From NCBI GenBank assembly GCA_021292105.1, contig CM037865.1, positions 75,095,152 to 75,159,151 of the forward strand: DNA of 64,000 nucleotides. Direction: 5' to 3'. This DNA comes from Anadara kagoshimensis (taxonomy: Eukaryota > Mollusca > Bivalvia > Arcoida > Arcidae). The position numbers were made by a program, and so were the translations under genes. Shown here piece by piece: positions 20,131 through 63,560 of this stretch. Position 1 is the stretch's first letter; each line of letters opens with the position of its first letter. The notes under the pieces were generated by a model that made no database searches, had not been told where the DNA came from, and worked only from the letters and a program-made list of their open reading frames with translations.

Positions 20131-20404
20131 TGTTGATTTATATTATCAAGGCCAAGGTAACACATGCAAATGAATACTGAAATGGTTAATTTATCTCAAA
20201 AACTAAAAACTTTTTGTAAAGAGATGTAAATGAAAATATTGTAGGTATTGACATAAAGATAATTTTGATATATGAATGAAGGTAATTGATTTAAAGGGCA
20301 AGGTCACAGATGCAGACAAAAAGTGAAATGGTTTATTGTTTTATGTTTGTACTTTCTTTTAGCTGTTTATAAATATATATTTGTATATATATAAGTTTTA
20401 GATG

Positions 20405-21221
20405 TAGCATTCTTAGTACAATCCTTGACTTGTGCACAGGAGCATTGTCGTGAAGAAGCAATACCCCTCGGCTCAACTTTCCCCTCCTTTTTAATTTAAT
20501 AGCAGCTGAAATAGCAGCTTTCAGCTGCTTCATTAGATCAGCATAGTAAGCCCCAGTGGTATAGATTCCAGCTGGTTTATAATTGATTAACAGAACACCC
20601 TTGGAATCCCAAAACACAATGGCCATGACTTTGCCAGCTGATGGTTGGGTTTTAAATTGCTTTGGTTGGGGTGAGCCAGGGTGCTTCCATTGCATGGAAT
20701 TATTTTGGTTCCTGGGTCCCAATGATGAATTCATGTTCCATCACCAGTTACTAAACGTAAATGGAAGCTCTTCGGGTTATCATTATAAATACCAAGAAGC
20801 TCCCGACTTGACTGGAGTCTTTGGAAGCGATCCTGCACATTAAGGTTTTTGGGGACCCATCTTGCGGATACTTTTGACATTCCAAGTTGTCTCGTGGATA
20901 ACGTGTATACACTTCCATGTGAAATGTCACACTCCCTAGCTATGTCATAAATCCTAATTCGACGATCATTCATTATGAGGGTCTCCACAGATGTGACAAT
21001 CTCCTTTGTGATGGCATCAGCTGGACAACCTGACGGTAGGTCATCCTTCAGTGAGGTGCACCCACATTAAAATTCATCTGACCATTTTGCAACTGTGGAA
21101 TAGGCAGGACCACTGTCACCGTACACCTCGGCCATTCGCCGGTGAATTCCTTTGGTATTTGATCCCTGTACTATGAGGAACTTTATTACTGCCCTAAACT
21201 CAACATTTTGATTTTCCATCA
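20405..21221 (-). pseudogene. Mariner transposase, inactivated
   Basis: On the minus strand an ATG at about 21221 opens MMENQNVEFRAVIKFLIVQG. Helix-turn-helix segments follow (HRRMAEVYGDSGPAYSTVAK; IARECDISHGSVYTL), then the DDE domain with VTGDGT (first Asp), QWKHPGSPQPKQF, SAGKVMAIVFWDSKGVLLIN and LLHDNAPVHKSRIV (second Asp). The first in-frame stop is after WSDEF. A Trp-to-stop change and a frameshift follow GDGT, so the ORF has at least two stops and one frameshift. The sequence stops before the YSPDLAP block, so the third catalytic Asp is absent. It is clearly a mariner family member, defective. Confidence 0.92.
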
Positions 21222-37014: not shown

Positions 37015-37135
37015 AATTAGGTTTTATGCCCCAGTCAAGAATTTATATATCTTATATTGAGACATCACCATCTATAGGTTAAGTAGCAGAAATGTTTACC
37101 TTTGCCGAGTGCTAATGGCAATGTGCAGGGAGAGT
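37015..37135 (-). mobile_element. Degenerate SINE, tail-side half
   Basis: Text such as CCCAGTCAAGAATTTATATA, AGTAGCAGAAATGTTTACC and GCTAATGGCAATGTGCAGGG aligns in order with the minus-strand SINE at 34809 (CCCAGTCAAGAATATTCAC, GTGCAGAAATTTTGCCTG, GATGGCATTATACAGCAGGG). The SINE text continues straight into the 47 bp array. Confidence 0.7.
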
Positions 37136-39657
37136 TCTTTAACATGACATGCCTGCTGTGACACAGAACATGCAGGGAGAGTTCTCTAACTTGACATGCC
37201 TGCTGTGACACAGAACATGCAGGGAGAGTTCTTTAACTTGACATGCCTGCTGTGACACAGAACATGCAGGGACAGTTCTTTAACATGACAAGCCTGCTGT
37301 GACACAGAACATGCAGGGAGAGTTCTCTAACATGACATGCCTGCTGTGACACAGAACATGCAGGGAGAGTTCTCTAACATGACATGCCTGCTGTGACACA
37401 GAACATGCAGGGAGAGTTCTTTAACATGACATGCCTGCTGTGACACAGAACATGCAGGGAGAGTTCTTTAACTTGACATGCCTGCTGTGACACAGAACAT
37501 GCAGGGAGAGTTCTTTAACATGACATGCCTGCTGTGACACAGAACATGCAGGGAGAGTTCTTTAACATGACATGCCTGCTGTGACACAGAACATGCAGGG
37601 AGAGTTCTTTAACTTGACATGCCTGCTGTGACACAGAACATGCAGGAAGAGTTCTTAAACATGACATGCCTGCTGTGACACAGAACATGCAGGGAGAGTT
37701 CTCTAACATGACATGCCTGCTGTGACACAGAACATGCAGGGAGAGTTCTTTAACATGACATGCCTGCTGTGACACAGAACATGAAGGGAGAGTTCTTTAA
37801 CTTGACATGCCTGCTGTGACACAGAACATGCAGGGAGAGTTCTCTAACATGACATGCCTGCTGTGACACAGAACATGCAGGGAGAGTTTTTAACATGACA
37901 TGCCTGCTGTGACACAGAACATGCAGGAAGAGTTTTTTAACATGACATGCCTGCTGTGACACAGAACATGCAGGGAGAGTTCTCTAACATGACATGCCTG
38001 CTGTGACACAGAACATGCAGGGAGAGTTCTGTAACATGACATGCCTGCTGTGACACAGAACATGCAGGGAGAGTTCTTTAACATGACATGCCTGCTGTGA
38101 CACAGAACATGCAGGGAGAGTTCTTTAACATGACATGCCTGCTGTGACACAGAACATGCAGGGAGAGTTCTTTAACATGACATGCCTGCTGTGACACAGA
38201 ACATGCAGGGAGATTTCTTTAACATGACATGCCTGCTGTGACACAGAACATGCAGGGAGAGTTCTCTAACATGACATGCCTGCTGTGACACAGAACATGC
38301 AGGGAGAGTTCTTTAACTTGACATGCCTGCTGTGACACAGAACATGCAGGGAGAGTTCTTTAACTTGACATGCCTGCTGTGACACAGAACATGCAGGGAG
38401 AGTTCTTTAACATGACATGCCTGCTGTGACACAGAACATGAAGGGAGAGTTCTTTAACTTGACATGCCTGCTGTGACACAGAACATGCAGGGAGAGTTCT
38501 TTAACTTGACATGCCTGCTGTGACACAGAACATGCAGGGAGAGTTCTTTAACATGACATGCCTGCTGTGACACAGAACATGAAGGGAAAGTTCTTTAACT
38601 TGACATGCCTGCTGTGACACAGAACATGCAGGGAGAGTTCTCTAACATGACATGCCTGCTGTGACACAGAACATGCAGGGAGAGTTCTTTAACTTGACAT
38701 GCCTGCTGTGACACAGAACATGCAGGGAGAGTTCTTTAACATGACATGCCTGTTGTGACACAGAACATGCAGGGAGAGTTCTTTAACTTGATATGCCTGC
38801 TGTGACACAGAACATGCAGTGAGAGTTCTTTAACATGACATGCCTGCTGTGACACAGAACATGCAGGGAGAGGTCTTTAACATGACATGCCTGCTGTGAC
38901 ACAGAACATGCAGGGAGAGTTCTTTAACATGACATGCCTGCTGTGACACAGAACATGCAGGGAGAGTTTTTTAACATGACATGCCTGCTGTGACACAGAA
39001 CATGCAGGGAGAGTTCTCTAACATGACATGCCTGCTGTGACACAGAACATGCAGGGAAAGTTCTCTAACATGACATGCCTGCTGTGACACAGAACATGCA
39101 GGGAGAGTTCTCTAACATGACATGCCTGCTGTGACACAGAACATGCAGGGAGAGTTCTCTAACATGACATGCCTGCTGTGACACAGAACATGCAGGGAGA
39201 TTTCTTTAACATGACATGCCTGCTGTGACACAGAACATGCAGGGAGAGTTCTTTAACATGACATGCCTGCTGTGACACAGAACATGCAGGGAGAGTTCTC
39301 TAACATGGCATGCCTGCTGTGACAGAACATGCAGGGAGAGTTCTTTAACTTGACATGCCTGCTGTGACATAGAATATGCAGGGAGAGTTCTCTAACATGA
39401 CATGCCTGCTGTGACACAGAACATGCAGGGAGAGTTCTTTAACATGACATGCCTGCTGTGACACAGAACATGCAGGGAGAGTTCTCTAACATGACATGCC
39501 TGCTGTGACAGAACATGCAGGGAGAGTTCTTTAACTTGACATGCCTGCTGTGACACAGAACATGCAGGGAGAGTTCTCTAACATGACATGCCTGCTGTGA
39601 CACAGAACATGCAGGGAGAGTTCTTTAACATGACATGCCTGCTGTGACACAGAACAT
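37136..39657. repeat. 47 bp minisatellite, about 54 copies, inside a SINE
   Basis: The unit is CAGGGAGAGTTCTTTAACAT, GACATGCCTGCTGTGACACA, GAACATG. Variants include AACTTGACATG, TTCTCTAAC and a 2 bp deletion (GTGACAGAACATG). It corresponds to the SINE segment CAGGGTTCTTTAGCGTGCCA-AGCCCACCGTGACACGGGAC. Because 47 is not a multiple of 3 and the unit lacks stops on the minus strand, long spurious frames (MSQQACHV...) appear. It lies in the intron between CDK5RAP1 exons 6 and 7 and should be a highly variable locus. Confidence 0.95.
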
Positions 39658-40374: not shown

Positions 40375-42557
40375 AGCTCACCTGACCAAAGGTCATGTGA
40401 GCTTATGGTATGGTGCGGCGTGTGTATGTGAGTGTGTGCGTGCGTGCGTGTGTGCTTGCGTTGTTAACACACATTTTCGACTTCTCCTCTGAAAGTACTT
40501 GGCAGATTTCAACGAGACTTGGTCAGAAGCATGTCTGGGTTGGTGCAATTTAGATTTGTTCATGGTGTTGCCATGGCTACCAAAACTAGGTCACAGTGAC
40601 CTAGGGGTGCAAAAATCTTGAAAAATCTTCTTCTCTGAAACCGATGATGGGAGAAAAAATCTGATGTGATATTTGGCTTCTCTAGGGTCTTAAGCCTGTA
40701 GTTTGTTCATTTCATGAAATTCGGTTGAAAAATGGGTTACTCGTTTTTGCGTTTAATTTTGAAAAAATTGTAAAATAGCTTCAAATTGTTATAACTTGAC
40801 TACTTGACCAGATAATGACATGGGGTTTTCAGTTTTGACATCTTCTTGTTAGTATCTTCAAAATGAGGTCAAGGTCAATTGTCAAGGTCGTGACCTAATT
40901 TTTTTTACCTCTGATTATAATTATTATCTCGAAAACTATAAACTTTTTGTATAGTCATGTATATTAGAATGTTGTAGGTATTGATACAACGATCATTTTG
41001 ATGTATAGAAAAAGGTCATGGGTTCAAAGGTCAAGGTCACAGATGCGAAACAATACAGAAATGGTTAATTATCTCGAAAACTATAAACTTTTTGTATAGG
41101 CATTTATATTAGTATGTTGTAGATATTGATATAACGATCATTTTGATGTATAGAAAAAGGTCATGGGTTCAAAGGTCAAGGTCACAGATGCGAAACAATA
41201 CCCAAATGGTTAATAATCTCGAAAACTATCAACTTTTTGTATAGGCATGTATATTAGAATGTTGTAGGTATTGATACAACGATCTTTTTGATGTATAGAA
41301 AAAGGTCATGGGTTCAAAGGTCAAGGTCACAGATGCGAAACAACTAACCAAAATGGTTAATTATCTCGAAAACTATAAACTTTTTGTAAAGGCATTTATA
41401 TTAGAATGTTGTAGGTATTGATACAACGATCTTTTTGATGTATAGAGAAAGGTCATGGGTTCAAAGGTCAAGGTCACAGATGCGAAACAATACCAAAATG
41501 GTTAATTATCTCGAAAACTATAAACTTTTTGTATAGGCATTTATATTAGAATGTTGTAGGTATTGATACAACAATCATTTTGATGTATAAAAAAAGGTCA
41601 TGGGTTCAAAGGTCAAGGTCACAGATGCGAAACAACACCGAAATGGTTAATTATCTCGAAAACTATAAACTTTTTGTATAGGCATGTATATTAGAATGTT
41701 GTAGGTATTGATACAACAATCATTTTGATGTATAGAAAAAGGTCATGGGTTCAAAGGTCAAGGTCACAGATGCGAAACAACACCGAAATGGTTAATTATC
41801 TCGAAAACTATAAACTTTTTGTATAGGCATGTATTTAGAATGTTGTAGGTATTGATCCGACGATCATTTTGATGTATAGTAAAAGGTCATGGGTTCAAAG
41901 GTCAAGGTCACAGATGCGAATCAATACTGAAATGGTTAATTATCTCAAAAACTATAAACTTTTTGTATAGGCATGTATATTAGAATGTTGTAAGTATTGA
42001 TACGACGATCATTTTGATGTATAGTGAACGGTCATGGGTTCAAAGGTCAAGGTCACAGATGCAAATCAATACTGAAATGGTTAATTATCTCGAAAACTAT
42101 AAACTTTTTGTATAGACATGTATATTAGAATGTTGTAGGTATTGATACAACGATTATTTTGATGTATAGAAAAAGGTCATGGGTTCAAAGGTCAAGGTCA
42201 TTGATGCGAAAACAATACCGAAATGGTTAATTATCTCGAAAACTATTAAATTTTTGTATAAGGATGTATATTAGAATGTTGTAGGTATCGATACAACAAT
42301 CATTTCGATGTATAGAAAAAGGTCATGGGTTTAAAGGTCAAGGTCACAGATGTAAAACAATACTGAAATGGTTAATTATCTTGAAAATTATAAACGTTTT
42401 GTATAGGCGTGTATATTAGAATGTTGTAGGTATTGATACAATGATCATTTTGATGTAAAGAAAAAAGTCATTGGGATTTAGTATTTACGTTTACTTTAAA
42501 TCTATCAGCTAGCCATTAGTTATCAGGTGAGCGTATAAGGCCCATGGGCCTCTTGTT
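40375..42557 (+). mobile_element. Tandem-core element 12, long
   Basis: AGCTCACCTGACCAAAGGTC hairpin start, GTGTGCGTGCGTGCGTGTG tract, GTTGCCATGGCTACC block, about ten ~146 bp units and AGGTGAGCGTATAAGG-CCCATGGGCCTCTTGTT end. Very similar to element 4, so the two are recent copies of the same subfamily. Confidence 0.82.
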
Positions 42558-43268
42558 AAATGATTATGACAACATGCCCTTTTTATAATCAGTTTATAAA
42601 TGCTAAAATGGCATGCTTTATTCTTGGATCTCTGAAACATAATTTATTACAGTCACATTTCTCGTGATAGTCTCGGAGGACAGATAATTTTATTATCAAA
42701 ATTCATTTAAATCAAAAACAAACATACTAATCAAAAACAAACATACTTATCCATTTCCGAGTCACAATCCAGAAGCAAAGTAAAAACTTTGGAACTGACA
42801 AGTTAGGTTAGACACGTGAACTTCCACCAGGGAAGTGAGGCCGGGTGCTCCGGAAGGGTAAGCACCTCCTGTATAATCTATTTCCAAATCACAATCCAGA
42901 AGTAAAAACTTTGGAATACTATTTCTAGTTGTTTTGGTGTTTGAATTAACAAAATAAATATACAAGAAAGAAAAAAATCAAAATCCTAATGAATGAACGG
43001 GAAAAAAGAGAACTTTTCTATTTTAAAACTTTTTCTAAATTCTGCATCAGATGGTATCTATAGTGAATATTCAATTAAAAGTATTGTCAGGAGTTTAATT
43101 TATGGTTTTTCTAATCCTTAATCTGTTTTCCTGAAGCCATATGTCTGACATGGTAAAATTAAAATGTAAAAAAATAATTTTGCTGGTTTATTTTACATTT
43201 TAAACATAACCCTTTCCCCATGGGTATAGGCATTGCACTTTTACAGCATTTTGGAAAAGTGCCCTTTT
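42558..43268 (-). mobile_element. Penelope-like element end fragment in spacer
   Basis: At about 42711-42912, minus-strand text matches the right terminus of the Penelope-like element: CAGGAGGTGCTTACCCTTCC, GGAGCACCCGGCCTCACTTC, CCTGGTGGAAGTTCACGTGT. The 3' part (AAAACAAACATACT, GAGTCACAATCCAGAAG) is internally duplicated. Outside this nothing is seen. Confidence 0.68.
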
Positions 43269-44558: not shown

Positions 44559-45305
44559 GAAATCTGTGTAAAAGAGACAGGTTAAGTTGGTAACACTCAG
44601 TTGATCATTTAAATCTGTATGAATCAGGCAGGTTAAGTTGGTAACACTCAGTTGATCATTTAAAGCTGTGTGAAACAGACAGGTTAAGTTGGTTACACTC
44701 AGTTGATCATTTAAATCTATGAATCAGGCAGGTTAAGTTGGTTACACTCAGTTGATCATTTAAATCTGTGTGGCACAGACAGATTAAGTTGGTTACACTC
44801 AGTTGATCATTTAAATCTGTGTGAAACAGACAGGTTAAGTTGGTTACACTCGGCCATTTAAATGTGTGAAACAGGCAGGTTAAGTTGGTTACACTAAGTT
44901 GATCATTTAAATTTGTGTGAAACAGACAGGTTAAGTTGGTTACACTTAGTTGATCATTTAAATCTGTATGAATCAGGCAGGTTAAGTTGGTTACACTCAG
45001 TTGATCATTTAAATCTGTATGAATCAGGCAGGTTAAGTTGGTTATACTCAGTTGATCATTTAAGCTGTGTGAAACAGACAGGTTAAGTTGGTTACACTCA
45101 GTTGATCATTTAAATCTGTGTGAAACAGACAGGTTAAATTGGTTACACTCAGTTGATCATTTAAATCTTGTGAAACAGGTTAAATTAGTTACACTAAGTT
45201 GATCATTTAAATATGTGTGAAACAGACAGGTTAAGTGGTTACACTCAGTTGATCATTTTAATCTGTTAAACAGACATGTTAAGTTGGTTACACTCAGTTG
45301 ATCAT
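44559..45305. repeat. 51 bp minisatellite, block 1 (~15 copies)
   Basis: The unit is GTGAAACAGACAGGTTAAGT, TGGTTACACTCAGTTGATCA, TTTAAATCTGT. The array begins at the presumed gene end and is interrupted twice; blocks 2 and 3 are at 46005-46485 and 49733-50555. Confidence 0.93.
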
Positions 45306-46004
45306 TTATCAAAAGACGCGTGTTAAATACACATCAAACCACCTATAAAGGAGAGGGGTAACACGCTAGCTACAGTTTGACCTTTTTAATTACTAAAAAC
45401 GACACAAATAGCTATAATTTTTAGGATTTGGATTTATTATTATAAAGTTTGGCGATAACTGGCCACGGCTGTACAATAGAGGAGCCAAGACTCCAATTGA
45501 GTCTGTAATAGGCATCCTTAAAAACAATTATATAACAAGTAAATGATTATTAAAAGAATGAAAAAGATGGACCCTGGTAACAGATGTTTGCCATTTACTT
45601 AGCATGATAACATTTCCATATTATGTATATTTATGAAAAACAGGTTTATTCTATATAATTGTGAGAGCAAAATTTGCCAACCATTGCCACACCTTGTATC
45701 CGCCGCAACAAAATGTTGTCTGGGTGGTTAGGCAGTTAATCTGAAAATATAAATTGTAAAACAACAGCAGTACATGTTCTTTAACAAAACATAGCTATAT
45801 GAGGTGGATGGGTGAAAATTTTCAAGAAACTGACACGTTCCAAAGAAAAACCACGTGTTTTATACACCGTGAAAAAGAGTTCTGTTAAAGGGACATAATA
45901 ACACTAAGTATGCGTTCGATGTACAAATATGAAATTCTTAAGAAAAAAGTGCACACTTAACTTTGATAAATTGATTTAATGTTAAAGCATTAAATCTTAT
46001 TAAT
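45306..46004. mobile_element. ~700 bp insertion in the 51 bp minisatellite
   Basis: Unique sequence interrupts the array between GATCATTTA and TTAATTATGTGAAACA. No ORF or clear inverted ends were recognised. It may be a mobile element or the original single-copy flank trapped by array growth. Confidence 0.45.
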
Positions 46005-46485
46005 TATGTGAAACAAATATGTTAAGTGGCTACACTCAGTTGATCATTTAAATCTGTGTTTAACAGACATGTTAAGTTGGTTACACTCAGTTGATCATTA
46101 AAATCTGTGTAAAAGGGACAGGTTAAGTTGGTTACACTCAATTTATCATTTAAATCTGTGTTAAACAGACAGGTTAAGCTGGTAATTCAGTTGATCATTA
46201 AAACCCATGTAAAACAGACAGGTTAAGGTGGTTACACTCAGTTGATCATTTAAACATGTGTGACACAGGTAAAGTTGGTTACACTCAGTTGATCATTAAA
46301 ATATGTGTGACACAGCCAGGTTGAGTTGGTTACACTCAGTTGATCATTTAAATCCTGTGAAACAGAAATGTTTAGTTGGTTACACTCGGTTTATCATTTA
46401 AATATGTGTGGCACAGACAGGTTAAGTTGGTTACACTCACTTGATCATTTAAATCTGTGTGGCACAGACAGGTTAAGTTGGTTAC
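46005..46485. repeat. 51 bp minisatellite, block 2 (~9-10 copies)
   Basis: Same unit as block 1, with more length variants (45-52 bp). It ends at GGTTAC where a Penelope-like element is inserted. Confidence 0.92.
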
Positions 46486-46899: not shown

Positions 46900-47221
46900 A
46901 CCGTTACAACATGTAAATTAAAAAACTGCAAAACCTGTAAAATTTTAATACGCATTTTGCCAGTAACCTTACATCTAAAATTTACTCTACGAAGCCACGA
47001 TGATCTGAATTCTAAATGTTGTATATGGAATAGAGTGCACTTTATGTGAACTCGTATATGTGGGTGAAACCAAAGGTAGACTAAATGTACGTGTGAATGG
47101 ACATCGGTTTGAGATAAATAACAATGGTAATCAGTTTCTTTACCAACATTTTAACCAGCCTGACCATTCTGTGTTATCTATGAGTCAGACTTTTGGAAAA
47201 AATATACCGCCATACAAATAG
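46900..47221 (+). pseudogene. GIY-YIG endonuclease domain of the Penelope-like element
   Basis: The main frame from 47045 encodes CELVYVGETKGRLNVRVNGH, then RFEINNNGNQFLYQHFNQPD and HSVLSM, ending at a TAG. YVGET and the RxxGH helix are the YIG half and the catalytic Arg region of GIY-YIG nucleases. Upstream in broken frame is a Cys-rich stretch (TCKLKNCKTCKIL) that may be the zinc-binding insertion. A frameshift separates these parts. Confidence 0.8.
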
Positions 47222-47246
47222 CCGTACATTAAGCACTCCATAACGA

Positions 47247-48297
47247 TTGCAACGGGAAAATTACTGGATAAGAGAACTAGGCACTGCTTCGCCATATGGG
47301 TGCAATGACAAAATTGTAAGCGTAGGAAATCTTTCAAGTCCGGGTTGTAACAATGTAAATGTTTTACACTTGTTCAATAAAACTACATGTGACAATAGAA
47401 GTCATGGATATCGGCGTTACAACAAACCCAATATCTATGGTGTTAGTTTTCCTAATCTTTTACCATTCAGAAACCTCTCGGATTACACCATATCCGAACT
47501 AAACTCTAGTCTATACCACTATTCCGTCGTAGACAGTTACAAGAAGAATGTATATTTAAAACTACTATAGATTCTAATACATCAGAATATAACCTTACTG
47601 CTATCATCATGGATATTGTTTTTAACAGATTATTAAAACCTGCTCGGGAAAACGATATTGAGAACGATAGTCAACGCCAATATCTTAAGTTACACTATGC
47701 TAACAAAGGCATAGATGCTATACACATTTCCAATATTCTTCAAAATAAACATGTACAATCTAAAGTTCCTGCTTATTTAAAAAACAATTCGCCACCTTAA
47801 GTTCCTACTTATACAATAAACCTATTGCATCCAAAATATAATATTAAACAAACATTGCATGTGTGAACTTTCATAATTTTACTCCACCTACCTGCTCTTG
47901 GTCGTCTTCTCCCTATATTTATGAACCAGCTGGACATGTTATAAATGGTGATCTCAATATAATCGAGAACACTAAATTAAGATCTTTACTTTCAAAAGAT
48001 CATAAATATAGAGAAGCTCAACTTTTTACTTGGGGACAGAATTTCAGACTTGTCATGGATTCTGTTGAAGAGTACGCCAGGCGTTGGGCTAAATTAGAAG
48101 ATGTTGAGCTTGATACCTCATCCGACTGGATAAAGGTTGTGAGATCTTTCGTTAAAACGAGAATTGCCAAACTTAAAGGGTCTATGAGTACTAAACCGTC
48201 TTTGGTACTCGGGGATCAAGAAATTAAGGCATACACAACAAATATGTTGTTGTCCAAGCTGATAAGGCTTCCAACAACATTATTCTCGTTTGTTTAA
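47247..48297 (+). pseudogene. Penelope-like element linker/RT N-terminal region
   Basis: Three open pieces continue one another with small gaps: WIRELGTASPYGCNDKIVSV and NKPNIYGVSFPNLLPFRN (47262-47570); RLLKPARENDIENDSQRQYL and NKGIDAIHISNILQNKHVQS (47609-47800); PTCSWSSSPYIYEPAGHVI, NTKLRSLLSKDHKYREAQ and VEEYARRWAKLEDVELDTSS (47863-48297). These are the stereotyped blocks that precede the RT in this family of invertebrate proteins. Stops and frameshifts fall between the pieces. Confidence 0.78.
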
Positions 48298-48439
48298 GAT
48301 TCTGCCTTGGGTGTCTTGTTGGGGAGCTTGGTTTGGATGGTATGTCAAATGACCCTGCATATGCTGGAACTATTTTTGCCAAAGATGGGGTTCTTTCCGG
48401 CCATTCTCGAGTCTTTCGGTGTCGGTCTTGGGGGAAGGG

Positions 48440-49535
48440 TCTTGGTCTTCCTTGCTTGTGTTGGATTCCTGGGCTCCATGGAGGTCCATATAGGGAAGGA
48501 TGTACTACTGGATCATTGGCGGTGACTCTATTGCAAATTTTGACAATTGTCAAAGATTGTCTTCAGTCTTATTCGGAATAGGTATGTTCTACATCTGGAG
48601 TCAACCAAGTGTGGATTATCGGAAATTCTAGAGAATTACTTGACCATCTAGTTTCTAATGCTTTATCTGATATAAAGGGTGTGGAGGTATTTGGTTTTCT
48701 GCACTGTGCACCACTGTCCCTCGTTCTGGGCTGGGGGAGCGTCTGGGACAAATTGTTTGCTTGTCGTTCTTTTACAAAGACGGTAGGCCGGTGCTGAACA
48801 GGGATTCTTTGTCAAGCACCATACAGATTCCAAACAAAAATATACTGAAGAAACCATCAACAAAATGATTTTGATAGATAACATATTTGTTGTGTTTGGT
48901 AATATAGTTTTTCAACAAACAATCGGTACACCAATGGGTACAAACTGTGCACCATTGCTTGCTGATTTGTTTCTTTATTCTTATGAAGCAGAATTTATGC
49001 AGAACCTTGTTAAATCTAGAGAGAAGATTGTCGCCAAATCATTCAACTCAACATACAGATATATAGATGACGTTCTGTCTGTTAACAATCCTAAATTTGG
49101 AGACTATGTGAATATAATCTATCCTAGTGAGCTTGAAATAAAAGACACGACTGATTCCTCAAGTTCTACTTCATATTTAGACTTATACTTGAATTATGAC
49201 GCACACGAAAGGCTACATTTGAAACTTGATGACAAACGTGATGACTTCAATTTTTCTATTGCCAACTTTCCTTTTCTATGCAGCAATATACCTGCTTCTC
49301 CTGCTTATGGTGTATTTGTTTCTTAATTAATACGCTATGGAAGAGCCTGTTCCTACTACAGGGATTTTGTACAACGAAGTAGGCTGCTTGTAAATAAATG
49401 GCTGACTCAAGAATATATTGCAAGCCCAGGCCTATTAAGGCCCTCAAAAAGTGTTATGACCGTCATCACAGTATTGTTGATAAGTTTGACGTCTCTGCGT
49501 CCAGGATTGCCCTGGATATATTTGACGTCCCATAG
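48440..49535 (+). pseudogene. Penelope-like element reverse transcriptase
   Basis: The best-preserved frame, 48865-49326, carries LIDNIFVVFGNIVFQQTIGT, PMGTNCAPLLADLFLYSYEA, YRYIDDVLSVNNPKFGDYV and RDDFNFSIANFPFLCSNIPA. YIDD is the catalytic motif C. Upstream in other frames are PYREGC-like and IIGNSRELLDHLVSNALSDI. The expected FDFSTLYT motif A reads FGFLHC in the genome, replacing the catalytic Asp. The C terminus ends IVDKFDVSASRIALDIFDVP before TAG at 49533. Not functional. Confidence 0.85.
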
Positions 49536-49732
49536 TTCCATGTTCCTTTCACAAATTTGGATTACACACGTGGCGGGTGTAGCTAGCTAAACAGGAGGTG
49601 TTTACCCTTCCGGAGCACCCGGCCTCACTTCCCTGGTGGAAGTTCACGTGTCTAACCTAACTTGTCCGTTCCAAAGTGTTTACTTTGCCTCTGGATTGTG
49701 ATTTGGACATGGATTAGTATGTTTGTTTTTTA

Positions 49733-50555
49733 TTACACTCAGTTAATCATTTAATTATGTGTGAAACAGACAGATTAAGTGGTTACACTCAGTTGATCAT
49801 TTAAATCTGTGTAAAAGGGACAGGTTAAGTTGGTTACACTCAGTTGATCATTTAAATCTGTGTGACACAGACAGGTTAAGTTCGTTACAGTTGATTATTT
49901 AAATCTGTGTAAAAGGGACAGGTTAAGTTGGTTACACTCAGTTGATTATTTAAATCTGTGTGACACAGACAGGTTAAGTTGGTTACACTCAGTTGATTAT
50001 TTAAATCTGTGTGACACAGACAGGTTAAGTTGGTTACACTCAGTTGATTATTTAAATCTGTGTGACACAGACAGGTTAAGTTCGTTACAGTTGATTATTT
50101 AAATCTGTGTAAAAGGGACAGGTTAAGTTGGTTACACTCAGTTGATTTTTAAATCTGTGTGACACAGACAGGTTAAGTTGGTTACACTCAGTTGATTATT
50201 TAAATCTGTGTGACACAGGCAGGTTAAGTTTGTTACACTTAGTTGATTATTTAATTATGTGTGAAACCGGTTAAGTTGGTTACACTCAGTTGATCATTAA
50301 AATCTGTGTAAAAGGGACAGGTTAAGTTCGTTACACTCAGTTGATTATTCAAATCTGTGTGACATAGACAGGTTAAGTTCGTTACACGCAGTTGATTATT
50401 TAAATCTGTGTAAAAGGATCAGGTTAAGTTCGTTACACTCAGTTGATTATTTAAATCTGTGTAAAAGGGACAGGTTAAGTTCGTTACACTCAGTTGATTA
50501 TTTAAATCTGTGTAAAACAGACAGGTTAAGTTGGTTAGACTTAGTTGTTTAATTT
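49733..50555. repeat. 51 bp minisatellite, block 3 (~16 copies)
   Basis: It continues the array after the Penelope-like insertion. Common variants here are GTTGATTATTTAAATCTGTG and TAAAAGGGACAGGTTAAGTT, which alternate with GACACAGACAGG units, suggesting a higher-order repeat of two units in this block. Confidence 0.92.
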
Positions 50556-51114: not shown

Positions 51115-51143
51115 ATTACATATTATACCAGTTTTAATTTTAC

Positions 51144-51189
51144 AGCTCTAGACGGCCGTTTCGGAATACAATTCCTCATCAGTAGTGCT
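51144..51189 (-). ncRNA. Hammerhead ribozyme, copy 1
   Basis: Minus-strand order: stem I AGCACTA, core CTGATGA, stem-loop II GGAATTGTATTCC, core GAAA, then ACGGCCGTC with predicted cleavage after GUC, and stem I return TAGAGCT. Stem I has one A-A mismatch. Stem II is 5 bp with loop UGU. Stem III would be only ACG/CGU around GC, too tight for a monomer, but the palindromic ACGGCCGT would allow a dimer, as in type I hammerheads of Penelope elements and retrozymes. Confidence 0.85.
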
Positions 51190-51463
51190 TGGACCAAAAT
51201 TATGAAACCAAAATTATTTTGAAGATATTGAAAAGCTACACAAAGGACCAAAATACATTTTACCAAATTAAGGTAAGGAAATACTTTGCATGAGGGAGTA
51301 TACCTTAGTTTTTGAGAAATTTTTAAATTTTAACTTGCAGGAAATTTGGACAATTATAGCATATTTCTGACAATAATACGAAATTATTGCCTACTGAGTT
51401 TGTGATATCCTCGGGACATCAGCCACCAGCAGAGATATCGGCTCAGGGGTTTAAATTACATAT

Positions 51464-53113
51464 CAAAGGTCACCGGTCACCAAATTTATCAAATTTGTAT
51501 TTTGCATTCCTATTGGTTGAATAGTCAATATTGATGTGTCTGACGGTTTCCCACGCCTTACATTTACCTGTAATACACTAAAACCTTACCTAAACGAACT
51601 GCTAATACCCGATAATTTCCGACACCGCTCGTAACTTTCCGGCGACCTAATTGATGACGTACATGGTGTTAAGCTGCTGAGGAAAGACACATTACCTATA
51701 TATGTATCCATATATTACATGTTGGTTTGTGTGGTGTTTGTGTCTTGTTCAAATTAACTAATCTAATTTAACTTTAATTTATTCGATTTTCAGAATCCAT
51801 CAAAATGACAAATAACATTTACCGGGTATATCATAAAGATATACGCACGTGTCAATTAATGTTGCATATTGCAAGGTAAACTCTGGTAATTACAGGTGGT
51901 AGATGTCAACCTCTAAACAGGATGTTTCCCAATGTAGCATATTGATAATCTCTTAATTACTGGTATGTGAGGGGGTGTAATTCACACTTTGAACGATATT
52001 AATTTATTGTGAATAAATTAACAGATAAAGGAAAGTTTCACTCGATTTTTGAGTCCTTAATAAAGTTATAATACAAAAAAAATATTTTTATTTTATAATG
52101 GAAACAGTGATGATGATGATTTATTTTTTAAACCTCTATTTATATATTTTTATTGTACAAAAAACTACAGGTCTTGGACCCAGATTCTACCCTAAAACGT
52201 GTTTTTTTATTCATTACAGGGGTAAATAATAATAATAATAATAATAAAAATAATAATAATAATAAGTCTTTGATTTTAATCTAAAAGGAATTAAAAATGG
52301 GACAATTTCTAGAACAAACATGAATTAAAATAAATTTGAGGTCATAATATAGCTGTACTGGAGAGAAGAAAAGATTTTTCTTAAATAAAAAACAAAAATT
52401 TGGGTTCTTTTTATTATTCCTTATGACAAATAGATATATTTTGTTGCGATAAATAGATATCAATAAATAAATAAATCAATAAATGAATAAATAAATAAAT
52501 CAAAGAGAAATGTAAAGATAATTAACATGATATTAAATATTAATGAAAATTAATATGAACAATATTTTAATAAAAACGGAAATTTTGGTTCTTTTATTAT
52601 TTGTTATGATAAATAAATAAATAAATAAATAAATAATAAATAAATAAATAATAAATTTCAAAAGAAATGTCAAATTATGTTTTGTAAAAGTATTAGTAAA
52701 TAGTATATCATACTTAGAGCAAACACACATATAGTTTTTTTCTTCTATTTATTTCTTATTATTATGTTTATTTTTTATTTATTTTTTTCTGCTGAAGGAA
52801 ACTGAAATACCCAATGCTAAAATAAAATAAACATATAAAAACACTTGAAGTTATTTCCGATAAATCTGGGTAATAAATACAGTTCACTATACAAGCTTCA
52901 TTTACTAAATAGCTGGGATAACACCTTCTGCGTCACTTCCGGTTTTGTGCTCTTTTACTACCAAAGGAAGATAACATTTTTTTAACAGGAATTTGATTTA
53001 CGCTGTAGAAAAGGACAGAAATGATTTAAAAATGTTATTTGTGGCTAAATCGACTTTTTATGATGTTATCTTTCTGAAAATAGTACTTAAAAAATTCGGT
53101 GACCGGTGACATT
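51464..53113. mobile_element. 1.65 kb inverted-repeat element in the hammerhead array
   Basis: Left end AAGGTCACCGGTCACCAAAT and right end ATTCGGTGACCGGTGACATT are near-perfect complements. The flanks ACATAT and TATACC join to give ACATATTATACC, which is exactly the uninterrupted sequence at the other unit boundaries, so no target duplication is evident. The interior is AT-rich, with (AAT)n at about 52226-52265 and (AAAT)n at about 52614-52650, and no transposase. Confidence 0.72.
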
Positions 53114-53133
53114 TATACCAGTTTTAATTTTAC

Positions 53134-53179
53134 AGCACTAGACGGCCGTTTCGGAACACAATTCCTCATCAGTAGTGCT
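53134..53179 (-). ncRNA. Hammerhead ribozyme, copy 2 (perfect stem I)
   Basis: Same architecture: AGCACTA, CTGATGA, GGAATTGTGTTCC, GAAA, CGGCCGTC, TAGTGCT. Here stem I pairs perfectly over seven bases (AGCACUA/UAGUGCU). Stem II is GGAA/UUCC with a UUGUG loop. All invariant core bases (CUGAUGA, GAAA, and the C at the cleavage site) are present. This is the copy most likely to be active. Confidence 0.9.
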
Positions 53180-53473
53180 TGGACCAAAATTATGAAACCA
53201 AAATTATTTTGAAGATGTTGAAAAGCTACCCAAAGCACCAAAATACATTTTACCAAATTAAGGTAAGGAAATACTTTGCATAAGGGAGTATACCTTAGTT
53301 TTTAAATTTTTTTTAAATTTTAACTTGCAGGAAATTAAGACAATTATAGTATATTTCTGACATTAATATGAAATTATTGCCTACTCAGTTTGTGATATCC
53401 TCGGGGCATTAGCCACCAGCAGAGATATCGGCTCAGGGGTTTAAATAACATATTATACCAGTTTTAATTTTAC

Positions 53474-53519
53474 AGCTCTAGACGGCCGTTTCGGAATACA
53501 ATTCCTCATCAGTAGTGCT
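53474..53519 (-). ncRNA. Hammerhead ribozyme, copy 3
   Basis: Identical to copy 1 in the ribozyme region, 340 bp from copy 2. Two sites cleaved in one transcript would release a unit of about 340 nt, the substrate for circularisation in the retrozyme model. Confidence 0.87.
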
Positions 53520-53635
53520 TGGACCAAAATTATGAAACCAAAATTATTTTGAAGATGTTGAAAAGCTACCCAAAGCACCAAAATACATTTTACCAAACTA
53601 AGCTAAGGAAATACTTTGCATGAAATAGTATAATT

Positions 53636-56600
53636 AAGTTTTTGCAATCACCTTTACACAAACACATATCATACACTTTGTCAACCCATTGACTTTCCTC
53701 ATGATTTTTGTAACTAGTAAAAAATGTTTAATATATTAAGAAGTGAAGTTTGTATTACTTCACCAGAATGCCTTGTTTGTTTATAGACAAAAATAAAGTT
53801 ATTGATCAAATCCAATCATGGAAGCACATAACAATATCACAATACTTACTTCCAACTGTAGAGGTCTAAAGGATTATGAAAAACGTAGGGATGTGTTGAA
53901 CTTCCTAAGGTCAAAATCATATAATATACTGTTTACAAGAAACTCATTTGGTAGACAATTTACATTGGGTAATAAGATCAGAATGGTGGAGAAATTATTT
54001 TAAATTCAGTTACATCAAACTCAAGAGGGGTAGGCATTTTGTTTAATAATAATTTTGAGTATAATATACACCAAATTAAAAAAGATAATAATGGGAATTA
54101 TATAGCAGTTGACCTGACTATTGAAAAGATGAGAGTAACATTATAAATATATATGCTCCAAATGAGGATAACCCACAATTTTTTTCAAATATAGCAAAAA
54201 TTCTCCAAGATTTTGAAAATGAATATTGCATCATAAATGGTGATTTTAATTTAGTTCAGAATCAAGAACTGGATACCTTTGGTTACCTCCATTACAATAA
54301 TCCAAAAGCAAGAGATGTTGTAATAAATATGAAAGATGAATTTAATCTCATAGACCTTTTAACTATATCCAGATGATAGAAAATATACTTGGCGAAAAAA
54401 ACACCCATTAAAACAAAGTAGACTTGATTTTTTCCTTGTGTCAGAAAATTTTTGTCCAAGGTTGTAGATGACAAAATCAATCCTAGTTATAGGTCTGACC
54501 ATTCTTCTGTTTGTTTATCATTAAAACTAAATGAATTTGTTAAAGGTAGAGGCCTCTGGAAAATTCAACAATTCCTACTAACAGATAAAAACTATATTAT
54601 ATAGTGAAAAAGTGTATATAAAGATGTAAAAATACAATATGTAGTGCCTGTTTATAACATAGAAAAAATTAATGAAATAGCAATGATGATATTCAATTTA
54701 CCATTACAGATCAACAATTTTTGAAACTGCTTTGCTGAATTAGGGAAAAACCATATCATACTCTCTTCCGTAAAAAAATGTCCATCAAAAAGAGAAACAG
54801 ATAATTGATGAAATTGCTAGACTAAAAGTAACTGTTTTTCTAACATTAATGAAATTAATAATAAAAAGAAAGATTTAGAGGAATTAAGAAAAGAAAAAAT
54901 GAAAGGGTCTCTGTTAAGGTCTAAAGCAAGGTGGTAGAGGAAGGTGAAAAACCAACAAAGTATTTTTGTAGTTTAGAATCCAGAAATTTTGTTAGTAAAT
55001 AATCCCAAAGTTGTAAAAGATGATAACTCTATAATTACTGATCAAAAGAAATCCTAGCAGAAACTAAACAATATTACTTCAATCTTTATAGAGATAATGA
55101 GGAGTATGATATGGATCTCAAGAGTAAACTTAAAGATATTAAACACATAAGTATTTTACTGAAGAACAAAATCATAGTTTGGAGGGAGAATTAACAAACA
55201 CAGAAATTCATACTTTTTTACGAAAAATGAAAAATTTGAAAAGTCCTGGATCAGATGGTTTTACATCTAATTTTTTAAATTTTTTTATAACGACTTAGTA
55301 AGCTTTTTAAGACGTTCGCTAAATGAAGGATTTCATACTGGAAAATTGTCAATTACACAACGTCAGGGTATTATAACTTGTTCACCAAAAGGGGACAAAC
55401 CAAAGCAGTTCTAAAAAACTGGCGACCAATATCATTGTTGAATGTTGTATATAAAATAGCATCTGGCTGCATAGCTGAAAGATTGAAAAAGGTATTACCG
55501 TTTATATTTCAGAAGATCAGACAGGATTTATCAGTGGCAGATATATTGGAGAAAACACTAGACTAATTTATGATTAATGCAATATACAGAGGAAAAAAAT
55601 ATACCAGGGCTACTTTTAATGATTGATTTTGAAAAGCATTTGATTCAGTGTCCTGGGATTATATTGATAAAGTGCTTATTTTTTCAATTTTGGTGAATTT
55701 TTATAAAATGGATTAAAATATTCGACAAGATATTATGTCAGCAGTCCTACAAAATGGAATTGTTTCTGAATTTTTTAGTATAACAAGAGGTTATTTCACC
55801 TACATATTCTTAATGTATGCTGAGATTCTGTCTGTTCTTCTGAAAAATAATAAAAATATCAAAGGTATTAAAATTGGTGATGAAGAATTTAAACTGTCAC
55901 TTTTTGCAGATGACACTACTGTCATACTGGATGGAGCAGAGTCATCATTACAAGAAACTTTACATGTTTAGATGACTTTGCCTTGCTTTCCGGTTAAAAA
56001 TTAATAATAATAAAACAAGAGTAGTGTGGATTGGATGTAATAAATATAATGGCGAAACTTTTCATCGTTTTAAATTAGATTGGAACCAAGTCCATTTACA
56101 TTGCTTGGAATAAATTTCTGTTGATTTGGACAGAATGATAAAAATAATTATGATATTAAAATACAAGAAATGAAAAAAGCTTAAACTCCTTTAGGTAGAA
56201 TAACCATTTTGAAAACACTGATAATTTCCAAACTAAACCATTTATTTATTGCTATTCCAAATCCACCGCTGGAAATAATAACAAAACTGAATAAAATGTT
56301 TTTAACTTTATTTGGCAACATAAAAATGATCGCATAAAAAGAGAGTAATGTCACAGAGCTATGAAAAAGGAGGCTTAAAAATGATAGACATCAAACATTT
56401 TATAGCATCACTCAAAATAACATGGATTAGAAGACTACTTCAAATTGAATCCAAATACAGAAAGTTATATTCTAAAATTGATAATTTCTTAAAGTATGGA
56501 AATGATTATTTTAATAAAATAAAACAAAATAATCCTAATAATTGTTTTTGGAATAATGTTTTTGAAGCCTGGAATTTCTTGTCTATGAGACAAAACCTGA

Positions 56601-57981
56601 AAATATAAATGATGTTAAAGATGTAAGTATCTGGTACAATAAAGATATCTGTATAAATAAAAGTCCAGTATTTACAAGTCTTGGTCTAACTGTGGCATAT
56701 ATATAAAAGATTTACTTAACGAAGATGGAAATATAATTTCATATAGAGAATTTAATAGAAGATATGCTGCTGTCAGGTCAAACTTTGTTGAATATAATGA
56801 TATAAAGTCCACCATTGAATCATATATTAAAAGATTAAATATACAAAACCAACCAGTTAATTTATTACAAATTGATATGCCATATTTTTTCAGAATAGTT
56901 TTTAAAAGTAAAAAAGGAGTAAGGACTTTTACAATCTATTTAATAATAATAACACAAAAGTCAAGAAAAATGGAAACCATTCTAGACCTTGATATTGACT
57001 GGAAATCACTATATAATATCCCCTTTAAAACTTGTAAAATATCAAACATCAATGGTTTCAATACAGGATAAACCAACGAATAATTTCTACAAATGATTTT
57101 TTATTCAAAATTAAACTAAGGGATAATAATCTCTGTACATTCTGTAACAATACAGCTGAAAAAATAGAACATCTGTTTTGGTATTGTGAGATAACTAACT
57201 TTTGGATGAAGTAGAGGATTTTATATATAAAAAAAATAAACGCTACATCAATATCTATAGGAAAGTGCTATCTTTGGACTTATTGACCAAAAACAGAAAT
57301 ATAAACCTCAAAATTTTCTACTTTTAACTACCAGACTTTACATATATAAGTGTAGAATTGATAAAAAACTGCCAAATTTAAATACATGGAAAATGAGTCT
57401 TAAATATCAGATTATATTGAAAAAATCATTGCAATAAAAAATAATCTTTATGCCAAATTTCTGGAATTTTGGGACCCATATCAATATCTTTACGAATGAT
57501 ATACTTTCTTCATCTGATGTGACTGTTGTTAGTACTGCAGAAGTAGTAGTAGAAATAAATCATCAACATTTATAGTGTATAAAATGTTTCCTGATGCTTA
57601 GAACTATACTTTATCATGAAAATATAATATATATTGTTTGTATCTGAATTATATATTCTGTTTGTATCTGAATCTCATAGGGGTTCACACACACACACAC
57701 ACTTGCATAAACAAAAACCCATACAAAACTGAAAAGAATATACAAGTACCATACCAAAGGAAATATAATAGATAAAATGTTTGAAATATTGGAAACAAAA
57801 CTATATATTTGTCATTTACTTAAGTACTTGATGGTGTGTTGTATATATATAGACGTGTTGTATTTGTAAAATTGTCCCTTTGTTACCCGGCAAGTGAACC
57901 CAGTGGCCCCAACCCTGGCACTTGACCATCCCTATTTAATGTCTGGGACAATAAAAACATGAATTACAAAAAAAGTTTTTG
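53636..57981 (+). mobile_element. L1/Tx1-like LINE, nearly full length, with 9 bp duplication
   Basis: The LINE lies between two copies of AAGTTTTTG (53636-53644 and 57973-57981). The intact hammerhead unit has TTAGTTTTTGAGAAAT at the same point, proving insertion. The 3' end has a short untranslated part (AACCCAGTGGCCCCAACCC, GGGACAATAAAAACATGAA) and ends TTACAAAAA. An (AC)n tract lies at about 57688. One ORF2-like region with endonuclease and RT is visible; no ORF1 was recognised. Many single-base frame breaks. Confidence 0.88.
53818..57210 (+). pseudogene. LINE ORF2 (AP endonuclease + reverse transcriptase), broken
   Basis: From ATG 53818: ITILTSNCRGLKDYEKRRDV is the start of an AP-type endonuclease. 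CIINGDFNLVQNQELD (about 54227) and YRSDHSSVCLSL (about 54490) are its later motifs. The RT follows: SPGSDGFTSNF (about 55240), LKNWRPISLLNVVYKIASG (55411), IDFEK (about 55622), and FADDTTVILDG (about 55904) with the catalytic ADD. The C-terminal LCTFCNNTAEKIEHLFWYCE is at about 57133. This order and the LFWxC end suit the L1/Tx1 group. At least a dozen frame breaks are spread along it, so it is inactive. Confidence 0.9.
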
Positions 57982-59745
57982 AGATATTTTAATTTTTAAC
58001 TTGCAGGAAATTTAGACAATTATAGTATATTTCTGACAATAATACGTTGTTTTTAGCTGAACTGGCTAAAGCCAGATGAGCTATTGGCATGATGTGTACA
58101 TGCATGTGTGCGCCTGTCCGTTTACAGCAAAATCTCTCTAACTATTATGCCAATTGAAACCAAATTTTCTGTGTAAGGTCCTTATTAGAGTCTTACTGTA
58201 GTTTGTTAAAATCATGGCGATAGGATATCAAAGATGACCGCCGTAACTAAAAATAGAAAAAACTTAAAAATCGTCTTCTCCAGAACCATTTACAGGAGAC
58301 AAAATCTGTAATGATTTTAGCTTATTCATGGTCTTAACCTACACATTTGTACATTTTGTGATATTTGGACAAAAATAGGTTATAGGTCGCGCACGATAAC
58401 TTGGCACATACGGGCTTATTCATTTTGTAAATAAACATTGTAACTCGGACTCATGAAACACGCACATTGAACAACTCGCCAATGTCCATGCTGCACCTTC
58501 ATACATATTTTTGTTGAAATATAAATATTTATCATATTCCACTTATCTTGGACATTTTCATTTATGTTCTTTATTTGAAACTTTTTAAATATTCACATGA
58601 AATTATTTCGTTTCTGCATAATTTTTGTGAAGTTCCACATAACTGTGGAACGAATTGTCTGAAGATATAACAAGGTATTTGTCCTTAACACCTTTAATTT
58701 GATAGGATAGGTTACTGTCGTCCTTGGCTCAGTGGTATGTAACATATCTTACAGTTAGTGGACAGCTATATAATTTTGTCACATGTGAGTTCGAACAATA
58801 CCGGGTCCATACATATATATTTTTTAATTTTATCTAATTTTGTTTTTAATTTTTATTATAAAAACTTTTCAATTAAAAAGTAAAAGAAATAAATGAATCT
58901 ATACTAATTATTTAAATGTGCTATCAGGCTAATAATTAATAATTTCTATCTTGTAAATGTATGAACAACCTAAATTTTAAAATTCTTGTGGAAATTATTT
59001 CTACCAGAACTACATAACATTTAAAATTAGCACAGGGCAAAATTTTAACGTCTCGTTTCATACAGAAATCAAAATATTAGCACTATTTGGGACTAATCAC
59101 TATTATTAATCCGTACCTCACCGCCGCGTCATACGGAAAAATCAAACTGTAAACCTATATTAATTTGGAAAAGGATGCCAACATCAATAAATTTTATCCT
59201 GTGTTGTTTATTCATTTATTTATTGTTTTTTTAATTTATTTATTTTATTTATTCATATCTGGGAATAGACAGTTAATATTGTTGTCATGTGCATAATTTT
59301 AAATTTAATATTTTTCTCTGTTAAAATTCAAAATGCTCCACATGACGCTGTGCGAAATATAAAAATACAATTCCTCCTTACAAGTGAAATATTTTATGTC
59401 CAACAACACAACTCATATTAATGCATTCATTTATAATTTTTATTAATAGATTCAAAATTAAAGTGAATCAAGTGTACGAGTTTCCAATTTGTGATGCAAG
59501 AGATTACAGCAGGTGTTTGTTCTAATTAATAATATAATACAATAGGATATGAATTCCAACATATCATGGCGTTGGGTGAATCTGAGAGTTAAAAGGGACG
59601 ATATGTTAATTATTAAGTTAATTGGACCATTAATTAGAACATGCGAACGAGTTGAATGGTCACGTCCTCGTAAAAATGTGAGAATATAGTATAATAGGTA
59701 TAAGGCGAAAACGAGGCAACACGTGTGATTTTCATAACCGAGAAG

Positions 59746-61280
59746 ATGTCTGAAAATAAAAAGATTGTATTAAATTCACAGGCAAAACAAATTGCCATCA
59801 ATGTTGTAAAACATTGCTTTGATGAGGCAAAACAAAAATGTCTCAAAAATCCCATCAGCTGTCCCTTGGAGAGAGCAAGTGCAATGACGGGTGTGCCGAG
59901 GAGAACATTATCAAGATTAAAATCGTTCGGAATAGAAACCAAACAGGCTGATAGAAAACAGAGATCAGATAAATTTTTAATGATGATTTTGATATCTGCG
60001 TAATTAGAAGAACAATAATTAATATGTATTTAAATAAACGCGTTCTTCCAACTATAAATGCTATTCATTCGGAAATAATTAACAAAATTCACTTTAAGGG
60101 GGGGGGGACAATTCTCAGAAAATTGCTTAAAGAAATGGGGTTTAACTGGAAAAAATGCAGCACAAATACAAAAATTCTTATGGAAAAACCAGATATCGTA
60201 TCAAAAAGAATTAATTACCTTCGCGAAATTAAAAAACTTAGAGAAACTGGACACAACATTATTTATATGGATGAAACGTATATAAACTCTTCACACACTG
60301 TACCCAAGTGTTGGCAGCTGGATGGGAACGGTTTAAGTGTTCCAATCGGAGCAGGTGACCGTCTGATTGTTGTTGATGCTGGTTCAGAAAAGGGTTTTGT
60401 TCCTAATGCAAGCCTTATATATAAAGCCAAGTCATCAACAGGTGATTATCACCATGAAATGAATGCTGAGAATTTCACTAAATGGCTTCGCGAAAAATTA
60501 ATTCCAAGCCTTGAACCAAATTCCGTCTTGGTAGTCGATAATGCATCTTATCATAACGTCTAAGAAGACAAAAAACCAACAACATCGTGGAAGAAAAAAG
60601 ACATTCAGGAATGGCTCACAAAACACAACATTAAATTTACAGAAGACATGGTTCGCGCAGTTACTTACAATATGCAAACAACAAATTATTCCACCTTCCT
60701 ACAGAATTAATTATATATTAAGAGAACATGGACATAAAATTTTAAGATTACCACCTTATCATACAGACTTAAATCCTATAGAATTAATTTGGGCTGATCT
60801 AAAATCATATGTTGCTTCACAAAATTTAAAATTTAAACTTTCGGACGTGCAACAACTTGCAGAAAAACAATTGAAAGACATATCGACAGAAAAATGGAAA
60901 AGGTGTGTTGAACACGTAAAGAAAATAGAAACCGATTACTGGAAAAATGACATCGCAGTCGATGAAGAAATAGAGAAATTTGTAATAAACTTGGACGATA
61001 CCGATTCCAGCTGTCATATACCATTTTTTGAATTTAATCATAAAATACATTCAAAAAATGGTCGTATACCATTTTTTAATGTATTTTATGATTAAATTCA
61101 AAAAATGGTATATGACACAGCGACGAAGACACAGACACAGCAACAGAAGAAGAGGATGAGGAAGAAGAAACATCTACAGTGACGGCCGACGAAGAATCAA
61201 CCATTTCAGAAGAAGATACGACTGATACAGCTGACGAAATTTTTACTGTTACCAACTTGCATGGAGCTGCACAATTATAA
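59746..61280 (+). pseudogene. DDE_3-type transposase, frame disrupted
   Basis: ATG at 59746 opens MSENKKIVLNSQAKQIAINV with an HTH (ERASAMTGVPRRTLSRLKSF). A frameshift at the T run near 59972 separates it from RRTIINMYLNKRVLPTINAI. The catalytic region has IIYMDETYINSSHT (first Asp, about 60270), VVDNASYHNV (second Asp, 60537) and LPPYHTDLNPIELIWADLKS (Glu, 60781). A TAA follows HNV and another frameshift lies near 60657. About 80 residues separate the second Asp from the Glu, far more than the 34 of Tc1. An acidic C-terminal tail rich in EEEDEEEET runs to TAA at 61278, out of frame because of the palindrome at 61012-61117. Confidence 0.88.
61012..61117. repeat. 106 bp near-perfect palindrome in the transposase tail
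   Basis: The arms are 40 bp, 61012-61051 and 61078-61117. The left arm begins TGTCATATACCATTTTTTGA; the right arm is its exact complement, ending AAAAATGGTATATGACA. The 26 bp centre contains a second small inverted repeat, AAAAAATGG/CCATTTTTT. It interrupts coding text between DDTDSS and the acidic tail, so it is an insertion or fold-back duplication relative to the ancestral transposase. Confidence 0.92.
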
Positions 61281-62942: not shown

Positions 62943-63560
62943 TACACATTTTTGTGTTTACTTTTGTAAAAATCATTAAAAAGCTTCAAATTGTTATAAC
63001 TTGACTATTTGATCATATAATGACATGGGGTTTGCATATTCTTGTAATAGCCTTCAGAATGGGGTCAAGGTCAATTAGGATGGTCATGACCTAATTTTTT
63101 ACCTTTCTGATTTTATTTATTATCTGGAAAACTATCAACTTTATGTATAGGCGTGTATATTAGAATATTGTTGGTATTGATGTAACAATCATTTTGATAG
63201 ATAGATTAAGGTCATGGGTTTAAAGTTAAAGATTACAGTAGCAAAACAATACACCAATGGTTAATTATCTAAAAAACTATTTGTATAGGCATGTATATTA
63301 AAATATTGTTGGTATTAATGAAACGATCATTTTGATGAATAGAAAAAGGTCATGGGTTTAAAGGTCAAGGTCACAGATATGACAGAATGCTGAAATTATT
63401 GATAATCTTGAAAACTATTAACGTTTTCTACAGGAAAGTATATTTGAATGTTGTAGGTATTGATACAATGATTATTTTGATGTATAGAAAAGGTCATTGG
63501 TTCAAAGTTCAAGGTCAAAGATGCCGAAATGGTAAATTATCTCAAAAACTATAATTTTTC

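Follow-up and report, generated by a model that had tools for sequence, protein, structure and literature searches.

The window analyzed here is a 64,000-nucleotide stretch of the bivalve Anadara kagoshimensis (GCA_021292105.1, contig CM037865.1, positions 75,095,152 to 75,159,151 of the forward strand), and between positions 51117 and 58046 it carries, on its minus strand, copies of a 339-bp repeat that is almost certainly a metazoan retrozyme without long terminal repeats (non-LTR), of a kind already described. A first-pass annotation had proposed minus-strand hammerhead ribozymes in three units of about 340 bp, and a motif scan of the window agreed, finding three complete type I hammerhead motifs on that strand at 51182, 53172, and 53512 against a background of 0.05 matches per Markov-shuffled window (40 shuffles, maximum of 2). 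The order of motifs in each unit is CTGATGA, a 5-bp stem II, GAAA, CGGCCG, and TC. As annotated, the hammerhead of unit 2 (53134 to 53179, predicted cut 53141/53140) has a perfect 7-bp stem I, and it is the sole copy of the three so paired; TAGAGCT in stem I of unit 1 (51144 to 51189, predicted cut 51151/51150) and unit 3 (53474 to 53519, predicted cut 53481/53480) leaves 3 bp paired before a mismatch. The predicted fold prolongs stem I by an outer A/T helix. Consistent with the annotated lack of an open reading frame (ORF), none of at least 110 amino acids lies within the units.

The annotation had also taken the palindromic stem III to imply action as a dimer, which does not follow from the palindrome alone. 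The stem can be read as 2 bp closed by a palindromic GGCC tetraloop. PMC7229834 likens a helix III of two base pairs with a tetraloop to invertebrate hammerheads and reports that most invertebrate retrozymes cleave efficiently as monomers. Covariance support, which had been proposed as a check, was found but is weak: on 131 isolated bases, the Rfam model RF00163 matched end to end at 53135 to 53178 (E = 2e-5), and its 28.1 bits, below the curated cut-off of 34, count against the assignment. Rfam returned no match of any kind for the whole window at gathering cut-offs and no hammerhead on 7.1 kb at E values up to 10. Fold energies provided no evidence, either for the circle (-64.4 versus -60.2, standard deviation 5.4, 50 mononucleotide shuffles) or for the hammerhead region (z = -0.8).

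Alignment of the genome consensus of the unit to the window gave four spans (51117 to 51456, 53109 to 53446, 53448 to 53644, and 57974 to 58046). They form a single insertion of about 2.8 units, which two later insertions split and spread over 7 kb. The three units of the annotated tandem array are present, but the array is not intact. The insertion extends from its 3' end at 51117 to a truncated 5' end at 58046. Unit 1 (51117 to 51456, minus strand, 96.5% in the consensus alignment) has this fixed 3' end as its low end, with ATT next outwards. At its junction with unit 2 (53114 to 53446, minus strand, 93.9%) sits a segment of 1.65 kb whose ends are inverted (51464 to 53113; inverted repeat of 28 nucleotides [nt], 86%), probably a DNA transposon; the sequence on its two sides rejoins to the consensus, and 51457 to 51463 belongs to unit 2 as its displaced tail. 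The 3' part of unit 3 (53447 to 53644, minus strand, 94.9%) is separated from its 5' remainder (57973 to 58046, minus strand, 95.9% over 57974 to 58046) by an element resembling a long interspersed nuclear element (LINE) on the plus strand (53645 to 57972), whose broken, reverse-transcriptase-like frames were read by eye and which is flanked by AAGTTTTTG on either side. Unit 2 has a 99% identical copy (L002), inverted and with the same flanks, at a distance of about 154 kb on this contig.

The hammerhead core pattern matched 3143 times in the 1.115-Gb assembly (1628 on the plus strand, 1515 on the minus strand), while its reversed control matched 0 times. We assign the repeat to the metazoan non-LTR retrozymes because the size of the unit, its type I hammerhead, its low GC content (34.5%), its occurrence in short arrays, and the absence of a long ORF all match that class; these features also support the annotation's retrozyme-like reading. 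Members of this class are short repeats of about 150 to 450 bp, single or arrayed, low in GC, and present in many copies, and the repeat fits that description. Among those reported from Acropora, Mytilus, and Ambystoma, the mussel repeats, of about 350 to 390 bp and some 5000 copies, resemble our 339-bp unit by description (PMC7229834). Apart from the periodicity of the unit, the copies showed no terminal repeats. A looser pattern, designed to catch Penelope-type hammerheads by excluding GG at the start of stem II, matched 724 places (reversed control, 4), and among about 100 of these we saw no second abundant hammerhead family, most looking like variants of the present retrozyme. Viral contigs held 0 exact matches to the core. 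In copies chosen by similarity, mismatches amounted to 1.7% in CTGATGA, 0.9% in GAAA, and 3.4% in helix III compared with 2.8% over positions 1 to 250, a small contrast. Loci found by the core pattern all carry the core by selection, so this choice of loci biases core conservation and misses very short copies.

The ends of the copies were examined at 30 loci sampled by similarity, 30 sampled by core pattern, and 40 further pattern places on contig C1, with some overlap, which together gave 98 distinct element ends. Most of these (74/98) lie at consensus position 339, directly after ATATGTA (...GGTATAATATGTA). Because the predicted ribozyme cut falls after consensus position 305, the fixed 3' end is 34 nt past the cut; a single end (1/98, L080) lies within 3 nt of the predicted cut, and it is followed by tail-like letters. 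The 5' starts, however, are spread along the unit (66 starts, Kolmogorov-Smirnov test against uniform, p = 0.39). For further analysis we dropped 20 copies ending elsewhere (16 at about 90% identity or less and 4 at 95 to 96%) and 6 more by their end letters or duplicate flanks. The remaining 72 copies measure 74 to 2289 bp, with 41 under 338 bp, 6 at 338 to 345 bp, and 25 above. Genome copies of this retrozyme thus have a fixed 3' end and ragged 5' ends.

The three letters that follow the fixed end are also far from random. In the 72 filtered copies they are ATT in 49, ATA in 9, and others in 14, against an ATT background of 4.2% (binomial p = 5e-50); at the C1 loci, ATT follows in 36/52 and AT in 42/52. 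The fixed 3' end together with the ATT junction is an integration signature, newly measured here, and our open-access literature search turned up no retrozyme paper on target-primed insertion. Insertion-free counterparts of the target sites, taken from diverged repeat copies, mostly suggest that ATT belonged to the target. The LINE-like copy interrupted by the retrozyme at L071 has a counterpart in the window that reads ATTTATGA at the site, and three of the four L044 counterparts of the L042 site have TTTTG at the junction. About 6 bp are absent beside the junction at L100, L093 has extra letters compatible with a short duplication, and the counterparts of L053 and L017 were too diverged for the insertion site to be judged. 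Two further candidates, L092 and L038, were discarded as their matches proved to be retrozyme against retrozyme. Some points speak against ATT as a pure target signal: the unit itself runs on as ATTTAAACC past the fixed end, so that some of the ATT could have come from the template, and the closest of the four L044 counterparts is without ATT. Moreover, GTA at the end was a filter condition for the 72 copies, so its presence in copies without ATT says little.

Target duplications did not clearly exceed chance. Without offset, duplications of at least 5 bp flank 2 of the 72 copies (shuffled mean 0.5, maximum 3). When an offset of up to 12 was allowed, a single 8-bp duplication appeared, at L058 (shuffled mean 0.09, maximum 1). 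At L029, reading the short partial unit at the 5' end by eye gives a 9-bp repeat starting with ATT.

In all 72 filtered copies the sequence continues across the cut site without a break, which means that the template was uncut or re-closed there. From this we conclude that reverse transcription very probably began internally on such an RNA. Whether this template would be a circle or an uncut multimer may be judged from variants within arrays. In 35 multi-unit rows, adjacent units share 172 of 427 departures from the consensus, while between loci 1% of departures are common on average and at most 7% (200 shuffles). Some rows are not independent, since they come from a single array or from duplicates of one (L011, L019, and L028; L033 and L034; L001 and L002; L026 and L027; L008 and L009). 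We read this sharing as one circle copied repeatedly, and on these grounds we lean toward a circle as the template; homogeneous donor arrays or local homogenization of the DNA are possible sources of the same sharing.

Taken as a whole, the account that we favor and regard as likely is as follows. A retrozyme transcript would be cut by its hammerhead and re-closed to a circle of about 339 nt, with transcription, cleavage, and circularization all inferred from the family. Priming at a genomic ATT, a borrowed reverse transcriptase would then start at a single internal position 34 nt beyond the cut and copy a variable distance round the circle, from under one turn to about seven, halting at no preferred place. 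The resulting copies would share one 3' end, differ in their 5' ends, and show few if any target duplications.

A different template, with existing arrays transcribed into a linear, uncut multimer that is copied from a defined internal start, would make circles irrelevant to mobility. The intact cut junction of the filtered copies is what an uncut transcript would have, 255 of the 427 array variants are not common to units, and donor arrays that were themselves homogeneous could account for the rest; the excess of sharing within arrays over that between loci, by contrast, is what repeated copying of a circle would produce, and we think the multimer unlikely. Several observations nevertheless weigh against the circle. 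An Anolis study describes hammerhead cleavage as dispensable and unprocessed RNA as the main substrate (PMC11167929), which does not favor circles and is what an uncut template would predict. In the array of the window, only 2 of 14 variants are common to its units, and all of our support is drawn from genomic DNA copies.

Two other explanations concern the route of spread rather than the template. Were the retrozyme moved by a LINE through ordinary target-primed reverse transcription, fixed 3' and ragged 5' ends would be the usual result, little or no duplication would also be possible, and LINEs do occur in the window. Nevertheless, no A-rich end follows the retrozyme 3' end, and its duplications of at least 5 bp stay within the shuffled range, whereas the LINE in the window left AAGTTTTTG twice, so we doubt that a LINE is responsible. 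The repeat might also be ordinary satellite DNA spread by DNA-level exchange with the hammerhead as a passenger, given that tandem arrays exist and that the window contains many other satellites. This we consider highly improbable, since the 41 filtered copies under 338 bp lie at different places and share one common 3' end, and a fixed end with ragged starts disfavors a satellite.

A fixed end at one point past the cut, usually before ATT, hints at both the insertion route and the kind of enzyme that moves the retrozyme. The authors who described metazoan retrozymes regard Penelope-like elements as a strong candidate partner on the basis of shared features and co-existence (PMC7229834), and a review describes retrozyme repeats as being without a motif able to reveal the partner (PMC7761336). 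In the lizard Anolis, a purified Penelope-like protein cuts at or prefers ATT and starts reverse transcription internally, past the hammerhead (PMC11167929). By analogy with that protein, it seems reasonably probable, if less so than the circular template, that a Penelope-type enzyme mobilizes the retrozyme.

A possible source of this enzyme lies in the window itself. The Penelope-like remnant at about 46900 to 49731 (plus strand, limits approximate) has broken frames in which a GIY-YIG stretch precedes a reverse transcriptase, and a tail before ATT. Its matches to PF01541 (47009 to 47221, E = 7.1e-4) and RVT_1 (48817 to 49326, E = 3.7e-4) are below the curated cut-offs. With that domain order, which is a feature of Naiad-type elements, the remnant may be Naiad-like, a label for which our literature search found no paper. 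Among 54 distinct tail copies of its family in the fetched loci (at least 20 of 24 tail letters), the next letters are ATT in 25 and ATA in 10, in an alignment that has a few misaligned rows (e.g., L038) and whose tail end was set after ATT had been seen; a stricter set gave ATT in 14/20 and ATA in 4/20. At 42728 to 42916, one tail copy is nested in another (42875), where ATT pre-existed in the target and 2 bp were duplicated. Retrozyme and Penelope-like junctions therefore appear similar in kind, a likeness that does not establish one common enzyme or a common tail sequence. That this abundant family is the particular partner we propose only tentatively, and some results argue against it. The share of ATT, compared between these two sets of ends, is higher at retrozyme ends (49/72) than at Penelope-like tails (25/54; Fisher p = 0.018), and the family of L101, a second Penelope-like locus, has a different tail, with copies in or near (TA)n. 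L101, which encodes a 728-amino-acid ORF, was rejected as the partner given its other tail, its position in or near (TA)n, and its lack of CTGANGA with a paired stem II.

More broadly, animal retrozymes may be parasites of Penelope-like elements, although we hold this with less confidence than the mechanism above: the enzyme would recognize the hammerhead tail on a re-closed circle, cut at ATT, and carry out rolling reverse transcription from a fixed internal start. If so, the partner could be recognized by the fixed end and the ATT rule, which would supply the motif so far missing. The copy ends give a testable rule (start 34 nt past the cut, ATT target, little duplication, and sometimes several rounds), and since a purified Penelope-like enzyme and an assay exist (PMC11167929), the idea of such a partner can be tested directly.

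For the described metazoan retrozymes, RNA circles were demonstrated (PMC7229834), whereas here the fixed 3' end and the ATT junction were measured in genome copies. Like the Anolis Penelope-like element Poseidon, the retrozyme has a hammerhead upstream of its presumed internal start, a preference for ATT, and a fixed genomic tail; unlike it, Poseidon is autonomous and protein-coding. Its start lies 111 to 118 bp inside the ORF and its cut at 26 bp, so that it begins about 85 to 92 nt past the cut rather than 34 nt (PMC11167929). Plant LTR retrozymes share the hammerhead and a proposed circular RNA intermediate, but differ in having a type III hammerhead, LTRs, a primer binding site, and duplications of 4 bp, features not seen here (PMC7229834 and PMC7761336). 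The ATG inside CTGATGA overlaps the hammerhead and, read by eye, opens 18 codons with a stop just before the 3' end. The ORF of the Anolis Penelope-like element is likewise described as beginning within the hammerhead (PMC11167929), which raises the possibility that the retrozyme descends from a Penelope-like element with an ORF starting in its hammerhead.

Other features were noted alongside these elements. The L101 locus contains, at its positions 1115 to 3301 and 4390 to 4875, a Penelope-like element whose 728-amino-acid frame comprises a reverse transcriptase and a C-terminal GIY-YIG. A second, truncated copy faces it head to head, and several GIY-YIG matches in the genome form similar inverted pairs. 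Three arrays of a 51-bp repeat surround the Penelope-like remnant of the window (44560 to 45308, 46007 to 46485, and 49733 to 50551), the last starting about at the ATT after the tail. A satellite with a period of about 138 to 145 bp forms separate arrays at 2011 to 3203, 4578 to 5630, 6570 to 7416, 11293 to 13039, 40923 to 42471, and 63137 to 63522. Transposase pieces lie at 60024 to 61095 and 20333 to 20734, with two DDE_3 frames (E = 8e-7 and 5e-7) and one Transposase_1 match (E = 1.6e-19). At 37124 to 39657, a 47-bp repeat is present in 54 copies that are 96% alike, with a GC content clearly above that of its surroundings.
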